Shown here piece after piece: positions 12,077 through 56,860 of a stretch of DNA of 64,000 nt. The translations under genes and the position numbers were made by a program. Each line of letters starts with the position of its first letter. Position 1 is the stretch's first letter. Location: contig NZ_JASBQE010000054.1 in the NCBI RefSeq assembly GCF_029960785.1, positions 1 through 64,000 on the forward strand, given 5' to 3'. The notes under the pieces were generated by a model. That model saw only the letters and a program-made list of their open reading frames with translations. It searched no databases and had not been told where the DNA came from. This DNA is from Polyangium sp. 15x6 (GTDB taxonomy: Bacteria > Myxococcota_A > Polyangia > Polyangiales > Polyangiaceae).

Positions 12077-12100
12077 CGGCTGAGCATTGCACCGGCCGGT

Positions 12101-12129
12101 GGAAGGACTGCGCTCCGCGCAGTGTTTCC
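12101..12129 (+). terminator. Imperfect hairpin just after kup
   Basis: A 13-bp stem with two mismatches and a TCC loop (12,101-12,113 / 12,117-12,129) begins 24 bp after the kup stop. Its inner arm ACTGCGC/GCGCAGT is that of the dispersed repeat family, so it appears to be a degenerate, isolated copy that may serve as a terminator. There is no T tract. Confidence 0.5.
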
Positions 12130-12150
12130 AGCAGGCCGGTACCGCCCTCC

Positions 12151-12464: not shown

Positions 12465-12492
12465 GAGCACGAAATCGGCAATGGAAACGAGG

Positions 12493-12790
12493 AGGCGCTT
12501 CGCCGGGGCTCTGCCCCGGACCCCGCGGGGGCTGTTCGCCCCTCGACCCGAACCAGGGCAAGCCCTGGACTCGGGGTGGAAGAACTGCGCTCCGCGCAGT
12601 TCTTCCAACGGGCCCGTTGGACCGCGTTGCCAGTCAAAGGGCAGCGCGGCTGTCTCGAGTCGGCCTGGTCGATGAACTGCGCATCGCGCAGTTCATCGAC
12701 CCTGGGTCCAGCGCTTGCGCTGGTCCGGGTCCAGGGGCGGATAGCCCCATCGTTGACCAGAGGGGCCTGGGGCGACGCCCCAGCGAAACG
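12493..12790. repeat. Composite palindromic repeat, inverted X and Y units
   Basis: X unit in minus orientation (hairpin 12,578-12,606) and Y unit in plus orientation (hairpin 12,670-12,698) face each other across a 63-bp spacer. The X stem is GGAAGAACTGCGC with loop TCC; the Y stem is CGATGAACTGCGC with loop ATC. Outside each lie the CCAGG/CCAGCGC hairpin, the GGGGC...GCCCC hairpin and the terminal G/C hairpin. The spacer shares GTTGGACCGCGTTGCC and GGCAGCGCGGCTGTC-type words with the copies at 24.7 and 52.7 kb. Confidence 0.92.
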
Positions 12791-13039
12791 GCTCCATCAA
12801 GGGCCCCATCCGCCTCCGGGGCAAGACCCACGAGATCCCGCCCCCTCTGACCACGGATCGCCCCCGTTGGCGCGCTTCGCACGTACCCGTCAAGAAGTGG
12901 TACGCTCGAAGCAACCAAGAGCAGGAAGAGGTCTCACGTGTTCACGCACCAGCGAAAGCCGCAACGAGTCACGACGCATCCTCCTGGTTCGAAGGCTGCG
13001 TCGCAGCGTCTGGTGCAGTCGCCGCCCGTGAATTTGATC

Positions 13040-15337: not shown

Positions 15338-20077
<4,740 letters not shown>

Positions 20078-20269
20078 ATGGCACCGGCTCGATGAACACG
20101 ACCACGGATGGCATCGGTCGAAATAGCTGCAACGGTGTCGCACGCGCAAGGCGTTCTTCGCGCCCGTTCTCTTCTCCCGAGGCCGAAATTTCGGCCCTCA
20201 GCGTCAGCGTTCCCATCCTCGAACTCGTCATCGCGTATCTTCTTCCGCTCTCATCGCCCGAGATGGGCA

Positions 20270-20395
20270 GGGGCGCTCGCCGGTCTTGCCTCGGCCTGCT
20301 CGATGAACTGCGCATCGCGCAGTTCATCGACGCTGAGTCCAGCGCTTGCGCTGGTCCGGGTCCAGGGGCGGATAGCCCCGGTGGGGCGGTGGACG
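20270..20395 (+). repeat. Dispersed palindromic repeat, single Y unit
   Basis: Perfect hairpin 20,301-20,329 (CGATGAACTGCGC, loop ATC), then CCAGCGC-TT-GCGCTGG and GGGGC-GGATA-GCCCC hairpins. About 30 bp of the usual inner spacer (TTGCCTCGGCCTG) precede it, but the partner X unit is absent. The unit ends directly against the remnant gene at 20,383. Confidence 0.88.
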
Positions 20396-24390: not shown

Positions 24391-24539
24391 AGGCTTGCGC
24401 CGGAAGCGTCCGCGCGGATGCACGTACATCTCGGGCTTCGAGCTCCCGATTTCGATATAAGACCATCCAATACGCACGGCTAGCCCCGCCCTCGACCCGA
24501 ACCAGGGCCTGAGCATTGGTCTTTTCTTTGGGCCGCCGC

Positions 24540-24845
24540 GCCGGGGCTCTGCCCCGGGCCCCGCGGGGGCTGTTCGCCCCTCGACCCGAACCAGCGCAAG
24601 CGCTGGACCCGGGATGGAAGAACTGCGCTCCGCGCAGTTCTTCCAACGGGCCGGTTGGACCGCATTGCCGGTCGAAAGATCTGCGCGGCTGTCTTGATGG
24701 GCAGGGTCGTAGCTGGTCTTGCCTCGGCCTGTTCGATGAACTGCGCATCGCGCAGTTCATCGACGCACGGTCCAGCGCTTGCGCAGGCCCCGGGTCCAGG
24801 GGCGGATAGCCCCGGTGGGGCCTGGGGCAACGCCCCAGCGTAGCG
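24540..24845. repeat. Composite palindromic repeat, inverted X and Y units
   Basis: X unit on the minus side (hairpin 24,616-24,644, loop TCC) and Y unit on the plus side (hairpin 24,734-24,762, loop ATC), separated by 89 bp that carry GTTGGACCGCATTGCC and TTGCCTCGGCCTG. Outer hairpins are all present on both sides. The element fills most of a divergent 586-bp intergenic region; the remaining 130 bp before 24,977 look like an ordinary promoter region with GGGAGGAGAG near 24,951. Confidence 0.93.
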
Positions 24846-24976
24846 GCGTCAACATGAGACCAAGGGGGGACCCGGGGTCGGAGTGGTGCAAAAGCCTCGG
24901 CCCAGGGCGAGCGGCAACCGACATCCGGTTTGTGCTCCGCTTTCAAAGAAGGGAGGAGAGATGGTAAGTCGATGGA

Positions 24977-25945: not shown

Positions 25946-25955
25946 GTTCCTCGGG

Positions 25956-26095
25956 GGAGGCGCTTCGCTGGGGCGTTGCCCCAGGCCCCACCAGGGGCTA
26001 TCCGCCCCTGGACCCGGGGCCTGCGCAAGCGCTGGACCTTTGGTCGATGAACTGCGCGATGCGCAGTTCATCGAACAGGCCGAGGTAAGACCAGG
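25956..26095 (-). repeat. Dispersed palindromic repeat, single Y unit
   Basis: Hairpin 26,045-26,073 (CGATGAACTGCGC, loop GAT) with the three outer hairpins to its left (minus orientation) and a short piece of inner spacer (AACAGGCCGAGGTAAGACC) to its right. It starts 11 bp after the lipid-kinase stop in a convergent intergenic region and marks the left edge of the accessory block. Confidence 0.88.
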
Positions 26096-26194
26096 AGCGA
26101 TACTGCCAAGGAAGAGAGCCGCGACAAGTTCGGGGGCGTCGCGTGGCGGCTGGATCGCATGGACGCCGCACGCGTCCTCGTGAGCCGGCAACGG

Positions 26195-36474: not shown

Positions 36475-37298
36475 GTCGTTGCTCTATCGGTCTTTCGCGG
36501 AGTTTGTCCGAAATGGCCGCCCGACGGACGCGCTGAACGAACGCGCGTGGGCTCCTGCCTGCTCCGATCGCGGAACATCTCCGTGGGGTTCGCGCGCAGA
36601 GGCGGCAATGGTCCGAGGCCCGTGAGCGCCCCGACGTCTCCCGCGCACGGGGTCACGTCAGTACGGGAATTCGCCCTTTTTCACGCCAAAGCGCAACGGG
36701 GGCGCAGCGATGCCGTTCCTTGTCATACCGCCGTGGTGAAGGGAGGGGAACCTCGGAGCCAGAACGAGAGACATGTACGGCTCCTCCATCGTGGCGCCCC
36801 ACATGACCTTCCTTGGCTTACGGATCCATCTCGTTCAAAACGGAGCGAGGGGTACCACGGAACAATATGAGGCGCAAGGGTTCACGGCGAAAAACAAGCT
36901 ATGGGGTAGAACTTCGCGAGCTCGGATTCGAACCCAAAGAGCTGTTTACAACATTTACCTTGACCATGCACCTGACACATGGACCACGCGCCGGTCAGGA
37001 CGAAAGCGGTTCGCCTGCCGGTCATGTTGTACACTCGCCCAAGCCGAGAGGAGGCTCCCGTTGGAGTGGACCAACGATGAAGCACGATTCCCACGGCAAC
37101 GGCCCCGCGCAGCGAGGAGGAGTCCATAGGTAAGGAGCGAGAGAGAGAAGCCGAAATGCTCCGAGGGGTTCGGCTTTGGTGCTGGACCGTTTGTCGAGGA
37201 GCTGCACGATGCGCAGTTCCTCGCGACACCAGGAGCGACCCTACCCACCACGGCAGCGACGCTGACCTCTCCACTGGTAATGTTGGCGCGCTCGTGTG
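36475..37298. other. 824-bp intergenic region, no gene found
   Basis: It separates the RND operon (transcribed leftward from 36,474) from the end of the PucR-type gene (37,299), so its left part should hold the efflux promoter. The only structured element is a degenerate repeat at about 37,180-37,225. Open frames across it lack signals, ribosome sites or motifs. Confidence 0.6.
37180..37225 (-). repeat. Degenerate solitary copy of the dispersed hairpin
   Basis: 37,195-37,207 and 37,211-37,223 form a 13-bp stem with loop GAT; relative to the consensus the arm GAGGAGCTGCAC pairs with GCGCAGTTCCTC by two wobble (G-T / A-C) positions. It is preceded by GCTGGACCGTTTGTCGA, the same flank as the copy at 52,678, but the remaining hairpins are lost. 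Confidence 0.7.
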
Positions 37299-44109: not shown

Positions 44110-44136
44110 TCCCTCGATTGCGAGACGTGGGGGCGC

Positions 44137-44460
44137 TGCGCTGGGGCGTTGCCCCAGGCCCCACCAGGGGCTGTCCGCCCCTGGACCCGGACCAGCGCAA
44201 GCGCTGGACCCGGGGTCGATGAACTGCGCTCCGCGCAGTTCATCGAACGAGCCGGGGGTTCAAGACCGGCGACGGCCCTGCCAACCAAGGCAGCAGCGCT
44301 GACGTCTCGACGGGCGGGGCGGTCCTACCGGCCCGTGGGAAAACCTGCGCGGAGCGCAGGTTTTCCCCCTGAGGTCCAGGGCTTGCCCTGGTCCGGGTCG
44401 AGGGGCGGATAGCCCCCGCGGGGTCCGGGGCAGCGCCCCGGCGCGGCGGCCCCCGTTGAC
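44137..44460. repeat. Composite palindromic repeat, inverted Y and X units
   Basis: Y unit in minus orientation (hairpin 44,217-44,245, loop TCC) and X-type unit in plus orientation (hairpin 44,338-44,366, stem GGAAAACCTGCGC, loop GGA) flank a 92-bp spacer. The X stem differs from GGAAGAACTGCGC at several positions on both arms, so pairing is preserved. All outer hairpins are present. The element occupies nearly all of the 468-bp gap between two cytochrome genes. Confidence 0.93.
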
Positions 44461-44577: not shown

Positions 44578-45153
44578 ATGCATCGGCGAACGTTCATCAT
44601 GCTCGGCTTTTCGGGGCTGCTCGTCTCGTGCGTCGAGGTGACGGGAACCGGAGAGCCGGGAGAGGCGCCCGCGCCGCTCGATGCACGGGCCGAGATCGGG
44701 CTGAACATCGCCCCCGTGCCGCTCAAGCTGGAGAACGCGGACTGGGCCGTCGTCGGGCTCGGGAGTTATTACGTGAACGCCGCGTCCGCGTGCGTCGATT
44801 GCCATAGTTGTCCGACGTATTCGCCCGGCGAATCCCCGTTCACCGGCGGTCGCGGCCGCCTCGACGCCGCGCATTACCTCGCGGGTGGCGTGTCCTTCGG
44901 GCCTCTGGGCCAGAACATAACGGCGCCGAGCCTCGCGCCGGACACGAATGGTTTGCCCGGCGGGCTCACGCGCGAGCAATTCACCTCGGCCATGCGCACG
45001 GGGAAGGATCCGGACGACCCGAACCGGACCCTCCAGATCATGCCCTGGCCCCTTTACAGGGTCATGGCCGACGAGGATCTCGTCGCCATGTACGAATACC
45101 TGCGCGCCATCCCGACCGCGCAGCCGGGCACGTGCACCGGCCCGGGGCAATGA
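44578..45153 (+). CDS. Mono-heme cytochrome c lipoprotein
   Basis: 191 residues from ATG 44,578, with lipobox (GLLVSC, Cys about 15). One CxxCH (CVDCH, followed by SC). Later segments LDAAHYLAGG, NITAPSLAPDTNGLPGG and the Met in IMPWPLYRVMADEDLVAMYEYLR fit the cytochrome c fold, with the latter Met the likely sixth ligand. It resembles the soluble cytochromes paired with membrane or quinoprotein dehydrogenases. Confidence 0.88.
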   Translation: MHRRTFIMLGFSGLLVSCVEVTGTGEPGEAPAPLDARAEIGLNIAPVPLKLENADWAVVGLGSYYVNAASACVDCHSCPTYSPGESPFTGGRGRLDAAHYLAGGVSFGPLGQNITAPSLAPDTNGLPGGLTREQFTSAMRTGKDPDDPNRTLQIMPWPLYRVMADEDLVAMYEYLRAIPTAQPGTCTGPGQ

Positions 45154-45156
45154 GCT

Positions 45157-45921
45157 TCAGCCCGGCCTCGGCTCCCCGAGGTGCCGCGGGAATTCCTTCA
45201 CCGTGAAGAGGTGCCGCGCTGCCGCGAGTGGATCCGCCGGCAACCGGCAAAAGTACCGCATCGAGGTCCGGAGCGAGCCGAACGTGCGCTCGAGATCCTC
45301 CCAGCGAGCGTTTCCTTCCACGTTCGCGCGCAGGGGAGGGGGCGCGGCCGGGTCCTCGCGAAAGACACGTACGTAATCGAGCAGCCGCGCGTGATAATCG
45401 GGCTCCTCCACGATCGCCGCGATGGCCTCACCACGCGGGTGCGTTCCGGCGATCATCGATTCGACCTGCCCTTCGAGCTCGGCGAGGCCGTCGTCCCACA
45501 TCGTGAGCAGCTCCAGATCGTACCGCGGGTTCGCGTGCACGACCTGCATGAGGTGGCCGATCACGTTGTCCCGGGTGCTGAAAAAGCCGACCGGATCCGC
45601 GAGCGAGGCCGGCTCCTCGAGGAAACGCAGGATCTGGTGGAACGTGTAGTCGATGCCGACGCGCTGGTAATACTCGGACGAGGCGGGCGAGATCCAGAAC
45701 CGCAGCATGTCGATCGCGCCCACGATGAGCTGGATCCGCGTCGGCGCTGCTTCGATGACGCCCGCCTCGAGGAGCCGCGAGAGGCGCGCGTCGAGGTCGC
45801 GGCCCTTGCCGTACGCCGCGAGGTTCCCGCCGAAACGGGCGATCTTCCCGGCCATCGCCGCGGGGCTCCCCGCCGCGCGGGCGAGGAGCTGGATCGGGGA
45901 ATCCGTGCGCCGCGGCGTCAT
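45157..45921 (-). CDS. Unknown protein paired with a PhyH-type dioxygenase
   Basis: 254 residues, no signal peptide, mostly helical. Conserved-looking stretches include MLRFWISPASSEYYQRVGIDYTF, GFFSTRDNVIGHLMQVVHANPRYDLELL and EEPDYHARLLDYVRVFRED, with several His, Asp and Glu that could bind metal or substrate. I do not recognise the family. It starts 7 bp after the dioxygenase stop, so the two are probably translated together and act in one step. Confidence 0.75.
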   Translation of the reverse strand: MTPRRTDSPIQLLARAAGSPAAMAGKIARFGGNLAAYGKGRDLDARLSRLLEAGVIEAAPTRIQLIVGAIDMLRFWISPASSEYYQRVGIDYTFHQILRFLEEPASLADPVGFFSTRDNVIGHLMQVVHANPRYDLELLTMWDDGLAELEGQVESMIAGTHPRGEAIAAIVEEPDYHARLLDYVRVFREDPAAPPPLRANVEGNARWEDLERTFGSLRTSMRYFCRLPADPLAAARHLFTVKEFPRHLGEPRPG

Positions 45922-52431: not shown

Positions 52432-52606
52432 GGCGGAAAGGAGGATACCCGATCAGGGAATTTCCGGAACGGGGGGTTCGCCGCGATGCGCTACGTCGAG
52501 TCGGTCGCGGTCGGATCCACGGGGGAGGGAGGACCTTGGTCCTCAAAAGTGTACGAACGTGAACAGCGGAATGTTACCGCCTGGCGGCAGCGGTTTTCAT
52601 CTGGGA

Positions 52607-52905
52607 GCCGTTTCGCTGGGGCGTTGCCCCAGGCCCCACCGGGGCTATCCGCCCCTGGACCCGGACCAGCGCAAGCGCTGGACCGTTTGTCGATGAACTG
52701 CGCGATGCGCAGTTCATCGAACAGGCCGAGGCAAGACAAGACAGCCGCGCTGCCCTTTCGATGGGCGACGCGGTCCAACCGGCCCGTTGGAAGAACTGCG
52801 CATCGCGCAGTTCTTCCACCCCGAGTCCAGCGCTTGCGCTGGTCCGGGTCCAGGGGTGGACAACCCCTGGTCGGGGTCCGGGGTGAAACCCCGGCGCTAC
52901 GCTGC
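52607..52905. repeat. Composite palindromic repeat, inverted Y and X units
   Basis: Y unit minus (hairpin 52,691-52,719, loop GAT) and X unit plus (hairpin 52,789-52,817, loop ATC) around a 69-bp spacer whose reverse complement matches the spacers at 12.6 and 24.7 kb (GGACCGCGTCGCC, GGCAGCGCGGCTGTC, TTGCCTCGGCCTGTTCG). Its outer end comes within 2 bp of the stop codon of the nuclease gene. The rest of the 476-bp gap is the kinase promoter region with nothing else visible. Confidence 0.93.
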
Positions 52906-56459: not shown

Positions 56460-56860
56460 GGAGAGCGGGGCGTTGCCCCGCACCCCAGCAGGGGGCTGTC
56501 CGCCCCCTGCACCCCGGACCAGGCACGGCCTGGACCGAAGGCCGAGAAACCGCGCGATGCGCGGTTTCTCGGACGGGCCCGGGGCAAGACCCGAAGCCGC
56601 GTTGCCAGCCAAGACCGCAGCGCTGCCCTACCCGCGAGCAGACACGTCAACGCTGCGGTTTCGACTGGCAAGCCCGTCGCCGGTCTTGACCTGGCCCGTT
56701 CGATGAACTGCGCATTGCGCAGTTCATCGACCCCGGGTCCAGCGCTTGCGCTGGTCCGGGTCCAGGGGTGGACAACCCCGGGGTTTGGGGCGTAGCTCGG
56801 CTTGCCGAGCGTAGCCCCATCGTTAATCAGACGGGGTCCGGGGTGAAACCCCGGCGATGC
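56460..56860. repeat. Long composite palindromic repeat, variant unit and Y unit
   Basis: A minus-side unit with a different stem (CGAGAAACCGCGC, hairpin 56,543-56,571, loop GAT) and a Y unit on the plus side (hairpin 56,701-56,729, loop ATT) are separated by 129 bp. The Y side carries an additional inserted hairpin (56,786-56,816, arms GGGGC...CTCGGC). The element runs from 5 bp after the ferritin-like gene into the last codons of the AraC-type gene, filling the convergent gap. Confidence 0.9.

Follow-up and report, generated by a model that had tools for sequence, protein, structure and literature searches.

What kind of element is the paired block of hairpins that recurs along this part of the Polyangium sp. 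15x6 genome, how did it spread, and does the host make any use of it? The window, meaning the whole stretch of 64,000 nucleotides analysed here, had been described in a first-pass annotation as carrying nine loci built from four successive hairpins, five of them inverted pairs around a spacer with shared words, and the layout was likened to BIMEs or REP elements spread by RAYT transposases. Much of that description stands: the family is dispersed, its members are composite inverted pairs in the manner of BIMEs, it has spread by transposition, and the unit is larger than a REP. The spreading agent is another matter. Judging from its sequence, the element is very probably a gene-less MITE of an IS50-like insertion sequence (IS), and its possible role in the host is graded apart from that identification.

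Architecture of the element

The element is about 320–370 bp long and consists of two four-hairpin arms, each of about 105 bp, placed in inverted orientation around a spacer of 61–127 bp. Each arm shows its four hairpins in the fixed order first described. From outer to inner, these are CNGGGGC/GCCCCNG, GGGGC/GCCCC, CCAGCGC/GCGCTGG, and then a 14-bp stem (e.g., TCGATGAACTGCGC in arm A and TGGAAGAACTGCGC in arm B).

A profile HMM combined with hairpin positions recovered all nine loci, along with a tenth, a weak remnant at 12084–12141 (Table 1). The five proposed inverted pairs, at 12.5, 24.5, 44.1, 52.6 and 56.5 kb, were all borne out, with 61, 87, 90, 67 and 127 bp, respectively, between their inner hairpins, close to the 63–129 bp given before. 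The remaining four are single arms or fragments (best E-values from 1.3e-44 to 6.4e-11). The claim that spacer words are shared in most pairs held only in part. The word GGACCGCGTTGCC occurs with at most one mismatch in three of the five pairs and GGCAGCGCGGCTGTC with at most two mismatches in three (exactly in two), while TTGCCTCGGCCTG occurs with at most one mismatch at four element loci, namely two pairs and two single arms. Once two mismatches are allowed, each of the three words is also matched outside the elements.

Table 1. Element loci in the window and their features (E-values from the profile HMM)
Feature	Position	Strand	Details
One arm, truncated by contig start	1–123	+	E 5.5e-33
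Weak remnant of one inner hairpin	12084–12141		E 7.5e-5 on -, 4.1e-4 on +; hairpin 12100–12130
Full core (two four-hairpin arms and spacer), terminal repeats lost	12490–12790	-	HMM match 12490–12809, E 6e-85
Inner hairpins of 12.5-kb copy	12577–12607, 12669–12699		Outer hairpins 12505–12517, 12769–12781
Spacer of 12.5-kb copy	12608–12668		61 bp
Single-arm fragment	20263–20388	-	E 4.9e-30
Nearly complete element	24509–24863	-	HMM positions 8–362, E 2.9e-102
Single arm and part of spacer	25955–26124	+	E 1.3e-44
Decayed fragment	37179–37287	+	E 6.4e-11
Full core, terminal repeats lost	44131–44454	+	E 2.1e-75
Full core, inner part of left terminal repeat retained	52595–52901	+	E 1.1e-87
Full core	56466–56791	-	E 1.2e-46; by eye extends to ~56858 beyond an extra ~48-bp hairpin module

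Two of the copies deserve comment. The 24.5-kb copy retains its left terminal repeat (24509–24526, two mismatches), the other repeat being without its outer seven model positions, and this copy is probably nested, as its left flank CCCTCGACCCGAACCAGGGC resembles, by eye, half an arm of another copy. The 56.5-kb copy carries inside one arm an extra module of about 48 bp (window 56791–56840; GGGGCGTAGCTCGG...CCGAGCGTAGCCCC ATCGTTAATCAGA) that is missing in the orthologous copy of another Polyangium genome (G002), and similar sequence occurs at one site each in two further genomes of the genus (G004 and G005).

Independent GC-rich noise can be set aside, as the 12.5-kb copy folds with z = -13.35 (none of 100 shuffles was equally stable) and copies at 86–93% identity occur elsewhere in the genome. 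Of 60 arms, two were dropped when the pattern missed a hairpin; the other 58, from 30 loci, gave 52 distinct sequences in which pairing in the stems was analysed. Standard pairs fill 99.7% of the 1748 pair cells. Changes on both sides are seen at 7 of 34 pairs and involve 90 cells, where shuffles give 34.2; the 90 are to be read as fewer independent events because much of the covariation is a single difference between A and B arms. One of five covariation measures, further pair types, did not rise above shuffles (8 vs 8.4). Paired stems could also be maintained by gene conversion.

A catalogue of 281 inner-hairpin matches was reduced to 218 with four or fewer mismatches, the other 63 having five or more mismatched pairs and probably being chance. 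Of the 218, 188 pair without fault along all 14 bp and another 24 carry a single mismatch. There are 14 different perfect stems, and 39 of the 188 perfect hairpins belong to 12 kinds beyond the two common ones. Such perfection across rare kinds of stem would be in keeping with stems held perfect by template switching in DNA (quasipalindrome correction) and not by selection on RNA. Loop inversion, a possible trace of that process, is nearly absent: once loops are oriented by arm and read inward from the outer end, 57 of the 58 agree (GAT in 34, TCC in 20 and TTC in 3, against a single ATC), and inverted loops were therefore dropped as a sign of it. This near-uniformity lowers the likelihood of template switching, which also leaves the placement described below unexplained, and we consider it unlikely.

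Copy number and distribution

The element is by no means a peculiarity of this region, and the outcome that the first-pass annotation had named as refuting, a restriction of the copies to this stretch, was not borne out. In the genome from which the window comes (G000; 13.4 Mb in 275 contigs), the inner hairpin GAACTGCGCNNNGCGCAGTTC, used as a marker, has 480 sites, while a reversed control has none. The five other genomes of the genus (G001 to G005) have 37, 431, 248, 183 and 177 sites. A search of the whole genome with the 24.5-kb copy returned the query and at least 39 others at 86–93% identity over nearly the full length, among the best 40 of 446 candidates that were scored. Outside the genus, a single marker site was seen in one of the 53 remaining genomes of a 59-genome family and order sample, and in a phylum sample of 282 genomes, G000 included, the marker occurred only in G000 and in one other genome (one site). 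The core is nearly confined to Polyangium.

Density within the genome is uneven, with 23 loci in contig C198 (354 kb) against 1 in C111 (359 kb). In G005, just one among the marker sites listed lies below 2.3 Mb. One part of the chromosome may exclude the element.

Terminal repeats and target duplications

The outer ends of the element had been missed by the first-pass annotation. They form a terminal inverted repeat (TIR) of 18–21 bp beginning CTGAGCATTGGTCTCATC, and some copies in an alignment of 30 extend outward into CTGAGCATTGGTCTCATCTGGGAG. The repeat has 45 sites at three or fewer mismatches in G000 and none for the reversed control. Exact matches were found in records of P. fumosum DSM 14668, Polyangium sp. 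y55x31 and 6x1, and two related MAGs; single exact matches in Corynebacterium and Prevotella records look like chance. Copies with both repeats measure 320–370 bp (six in G003 bear the core between both), and variants of about 1 kb exist, as discussed below for the locus L113.

Clear target-site duplications accompany the repeats. Among 23 TIR pairs, 15 are flanked by sequences that match at 8 or 9 of 9 bp; shuffled flanks average 0.75 such pairs and never exceed 5 in 2000 trials. The pairs comprise six in G000 and 17 from 20 further stretches, three of which lacked one end or flank and were dropped; also left out were a 784-bp pair in L053, repeated views of three loci, and copies without terminal repeats, whose duplications are not reliably readable. 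Matches were seen for 9 of 14 pairs with the element core, 3 of 4 IS copies and 3 of 5 pairs with other cores. Eight pairs fell below 8/9, and one of these, L107, has a 10/10 match at 10 bp yet was counted as a miss.

Three further elements, L102, L104 (G027) and L106 (G055), come from one same-family and one same-order genome. Their terminal repeat is the same or similar and their duplications are 9/9, but they do not match the element core. Several MITE families have seemingly been spawned by the transposase family.

A probable partner insertion sequence

In G005, four copies of a 1504-bp IS are bounded by the terminal repeat of the element (IS ends CTGAGCACTGGTCTCATC / CTGAGCATTGGTTCCATC, alongside the element ends given above), with duplications of 9/9, 9/9, 8/9 and 4/9. 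The IS encodes a protein of 475 aa with the domains PF14706 (Tnp_DNA_bind), PF01609 (DDE_Tnp_1) and PF02281 (Dimer_Tnp_Tn5), which aligns with the Tn5 transposase 1mus (E 2.1e-36) and scores 254.6 bits against the NCBIfam IS4 family model NF033590 (cut-off 160). Considering that terminal repeats and 9-bp duplications are common to the element and this Tn5/IS4-type IS, the element is best read as its MITE. A Tn5-like transposase would mobilise it in trans, and the arms and spacer behave, from their sequence, as one transposable unit.

Across the six genomes of the genus, the transposase is full length in G005 (four copies) and G002 (one copy, 84%), in pieces in G003, many at contig ends, and partial in G000 and G001; a protein search did not find it in G004, which has 183 marker sites. 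An intact partner IS was not found in the G000 assembly, where only partial relatives at 63% and 73% identity occur, and a PF01609 search of that genome gave seven matches, none of them on the window's contig, C225. Of 30 transposase matches across the genus, one, L113 in G005, is placed inside such an element: a 1033-bp structure in which element arms are joined to the 3′ part of the IS transposase gene and the terminal repeat, with no target duplication in its flanks. L112 and L113, both in G005, are about 1.0 kb long; arms stand at one end or at both, and the interior includes several hundred bp of other DNA.

The same evidence bears on the original suggestion that a RAYT (TnpA_REP) HUH transposase spread a family of the REP/BIME or REPIN type. 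High copy number, extragenic location, inverted pairs, hairpins and a preference for convergent gaps are all features reported for REPs (PMC1525189), and full-length Y1_Tnp (PF01797) matches, in 152-codon frames, do occur in G003 and G001. At E 0.001, however, Y1_Tnp is missing from three of the six genomes (G002, G004 and G005), which carry 431, 183 and 177 marker sites. The search for a genome-encoded RAYT that had been recommended gave a single match in G000, a partial one of 58 codons (model positions 63–121 of 121), and the 3174-bp locus around it contains no marker hairpin or terminal repeat. The ends are those of an IS4-type IS, and a single unit spans 320–370 bp; even one arm, at about 105 bp, exceeds the palindrome of 20–40 bp with a tagged end of GTAG or CGTC type by which REPs are recognized (PMC3733652). 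A RAYT origin is exceedingly unlikely and was rejected, and BIME-like inverted pairs of hairpins need not derive from RAYTs.

Insertion polymorphism between relatives

Empty sites in close relatives, which the first-pass annotation had proposed looking for, were found both at 44.1 kb in the window and on contig C198. The window is collinear with G004, G003 and G005 at about 0.13–12.08 kb and 40.5–56.5 kb, the second stretch being covered in part or whole by G002 and G001 as well. At the place of the 44.1-kb element, the orthologous sequence is empty in G004, G003, G005 and G001, with other sequence in G002. The 52.6-kb element is missing in G004 and G001, and other copies lie nearby in G002, G003 and G005. 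Conversely, the window is empty at 41.98 kb, and G002 carries a copy of its own at that place. When the 23 element loci of C198 were compared with G004 and G005, those at 279106 and 327808 were empty in both references and those at 93460, 120548 and 249329 were present in G004 and empty in G005; the others were shared, complex or unmappable. The empty site at 279106 reads as a short overlap of two convergent stop regions. Such orthologous polymorphism supports the mobility of the element.

The genomes also differ in other ways. An apparent insertion of about 380 bp in G002, G003 and G005 (window 45150–45170) looks like coding sequence that the window and G004 lack, and not like an element. At window 42826, G005 has an insert of about 125 bp with inverted ends CAGGCTGTTGA...TCAACAGCCTG, unrelated to the element by eye and possibly another MITE family. 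The 28 kb or so at window 12080–40500 have no long match in the collinear G004, G003 and G005, which have about 3–10 kb there, as for an island or a multi-gene replacement. Within it, a long minus-strand ORF at 15540–17400 contains head-to-tail repeats of 126 bp (42 codons), as in WD40-type proteins; a 70-nt reference recurs in 14 copies, the others being 60–84% identical to it.

Placement and target choice

The element lies preferentially behind genes. With gene calls from our own simple codon-model caller, which is not a published tool, 79 element loci divide into 32 in convergent gaps, 40 in tandem gaps and 7 in divergent ones; the 1470 gaps overall comprise 245, 982 and 243 of these kinds. 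The convergent excess (32/79 vs 245/1470) has p = 4e-7 by count, although the 79 loci are not all independent because orthologous copies and fragments are included. G000 alone has 14 convergent, 13 tandem and 5 divergent among 32 loci. At 61 of the 79 loci, a stop codon lies no more than 25 bp from an element edge, compared with 34.0 for random placement within the gap (maximum 43 in 2000 trials); G000 alone has 23 of 32, compared with 14.5 (maximum 21). Start codons lie within 25 bp at 3 of 79 loci against 9.1 expected, a shortfall inside the simulated range (minimum 2). This 3′-end placement, with so few loci near a start, speaks against a cis-regulatory structured RNA or a new RNA family, as does the absence of any match in the window to Rfam covariance models over the gathering score; the stable fold and covarying stems would suit such an RNA, but we hold it to be highly unlikely.

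Part of the placement can be traced to target choice. Of 17 targets supported by duplications, six are hairpins whose stems reach 7 bp or more. Among 1876 random intergenic positions the share is 3.7% (p = 0.001), and at post-stop positions it is 5.8% (p = 0.003). Two of these six, L099 and L101, represent one kind of site, and the duplication at L100, which counts among the 17 targets, is only 7/8. L099 and L101 are IS copies of G005 that sit inside the third hairpin (CCAGGCACGGCCTGG) of element copies, that is, inside the IS's own MITE, and at L114, also in G005, a terminal repeat adjoins the third hairpin of an element copy. The transposase would lean towards palindromes as targets, the third hairpin of older copies among them. 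The data support transposition by a Tn5-like enzyme that is somewhat biased to palindromic sites, and insertion preference contributes to the placement.

In fact, target choice and purging alone could account for elements beside stop codons. A plain selfish MITE without host function would combine palindromic 3′-end targets with purifying loss elsewhere and ectopic gene conversion. The hairpin targets and the insertions in or next to the third hairpin are what it would lead one to expect, and the convergent share in G000 is similar for copies with a terminal repeat (3/8) and without one (11/24, fragments included). Its difficulties lie in the fate of older copies, described next; weighing both, we give this explanation somewhat less than an even chance.

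Loss of ends and persistence of the hairpins

Copies that have lost their ends predominate. In a census of G000 covering C198, C111, C225 and 60 kb of C264, 8 of 24 near-full copies have at least one terminal repeat and one has both, so that 23 lack one or both; the single copy with both comes from a stretch chosen because of those repeats. The mobility of the remaining census copies is historical. Abortive cutting by the transposase followed by end joining is conceivable as a cause of end loss. Clearly, this is a case of a MITE fading as a transposon while its structure persists.

Stems that are still paired after the terminal repeats are lost sit poorly with a purely selfish MITE, and so does the comparison of six orthologous pairs of copies, in which arms are more similar than spacers throughout (arm/spacer identities of 92/77, 93/89, 86/80, 86/75, 90/79 and 97/81%). 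The flanks of these pairs are 79–97% identical, and arms exceed flanks in three of the six. In two of the six, 249329 and 347538, several hairpins have been replaced wholesale, as ectopic gene conversion of a selfish element would predict; these differences could reflect gene conversion or independent insertion, and the two pairs are therefore weak evidence for constraint.

Our scheme for the host's part is as follows. The element would insert behind a gene, its mobile ends would then be lost, and the paired stems would be retained while the spacer diverges faster. The hairpins may be kept as two-way 3′-end structures in RNA, stopping or shielding transcripts, and the transposon would thereby become a terminator-like part of the host gene. 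Rho-independent termination (hairpin and U-tract) is not supported: of six terminator-like sites in the 44–57 kb stretch, none lies inside an element. With no U-tract site in the elements scanned, any termination would be by a GC hairpin, or Rho-dependent, or would be replaced by protection of mRNA ends. To our knowledge, how transcripts end in very GC-rich bacteria without U-tract terminators is poorly understood.

Whether the hairpins are kept through selection as RNA structures that end or protect transcripts appears, on sequence grounds, about evenly balanced. The larger proposal goes further, in that Polyangium would draw gene ends from a Tn5-type MITE that lands behind stops and has its ends deleted, its eight-hairpin core being selected as a two-way transcript-end module, with hundreds of hairpins per genome and turnover between species; this we offer tentatively, as a rather doubtful possibility. 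The same gene pair with and without a hairpin block in sister species provides a natural experiment on transcript ends.

Comparison with known systems

The ends of Tn5 are 19 bp long. The partner IS resembles the IS50/Tn5 group of the IS4 family in its three domains (PF14706, PF01609 and PF02281), in terminal repeats that begin CTGA and in its 9-bp duplication. The element differs from the IS in having no transposase and, by eye, shares with it approximately the terminal 18 bp only. Among the open-licence PubMed Central literature, judged by title or the start of the abstract, no description of this family and nothing on inverted-repeat transposons of Polyangium was found.

A precedent for the target choice is ISRm22, an IS4-family element of Sinorhizobium meliloti that is reported to insert at the palindrome axis of REPs, which themselves favour convergent gaps (PMC1525189). 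The likeness lies in insertion of an IS4-family element at a palindrome axis; ISRm22 targets REPs, whereas some of the palindromes hit in Polyangium belong to non-autonomous relatives of the IS itself. A large survey reports that IS4 is under-represented in divergent gaps (PMC9208149).

The BIMEs and REPINs with their RAYTs are alike in their inverted pairs of hairpin units, extragenic location and hundreds of copies, but depend on another class of transposase (PMC2817692 and PMC3116915); the present element has a 9-bp duplication and a much larger unit. Closer in kind are the bacterial MITEs QMITE2, BOX, RUP and SPRITE, which a review (PMC10969869) describes as short and intergenic, with terminal repeats, target duplications and stable RNA folds, and sometimes nested. 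MITEs are typically AT-rich and SPRITE is terminator-like according to that review. Compared with those four as presented there, the Polyangium element differs in its eight GC-rich hairpins in two arms, in the loss of one or both ends from most copies examined and in its placement at stop codons. MITEs, the targeting of palindromes by the IS4 family and terminator-like MITEs are thus already known; what is new is the eight-hairpin, two-arm architecture, the frequent loss of ends with stems kept, and a placement that hugs the stop codon.
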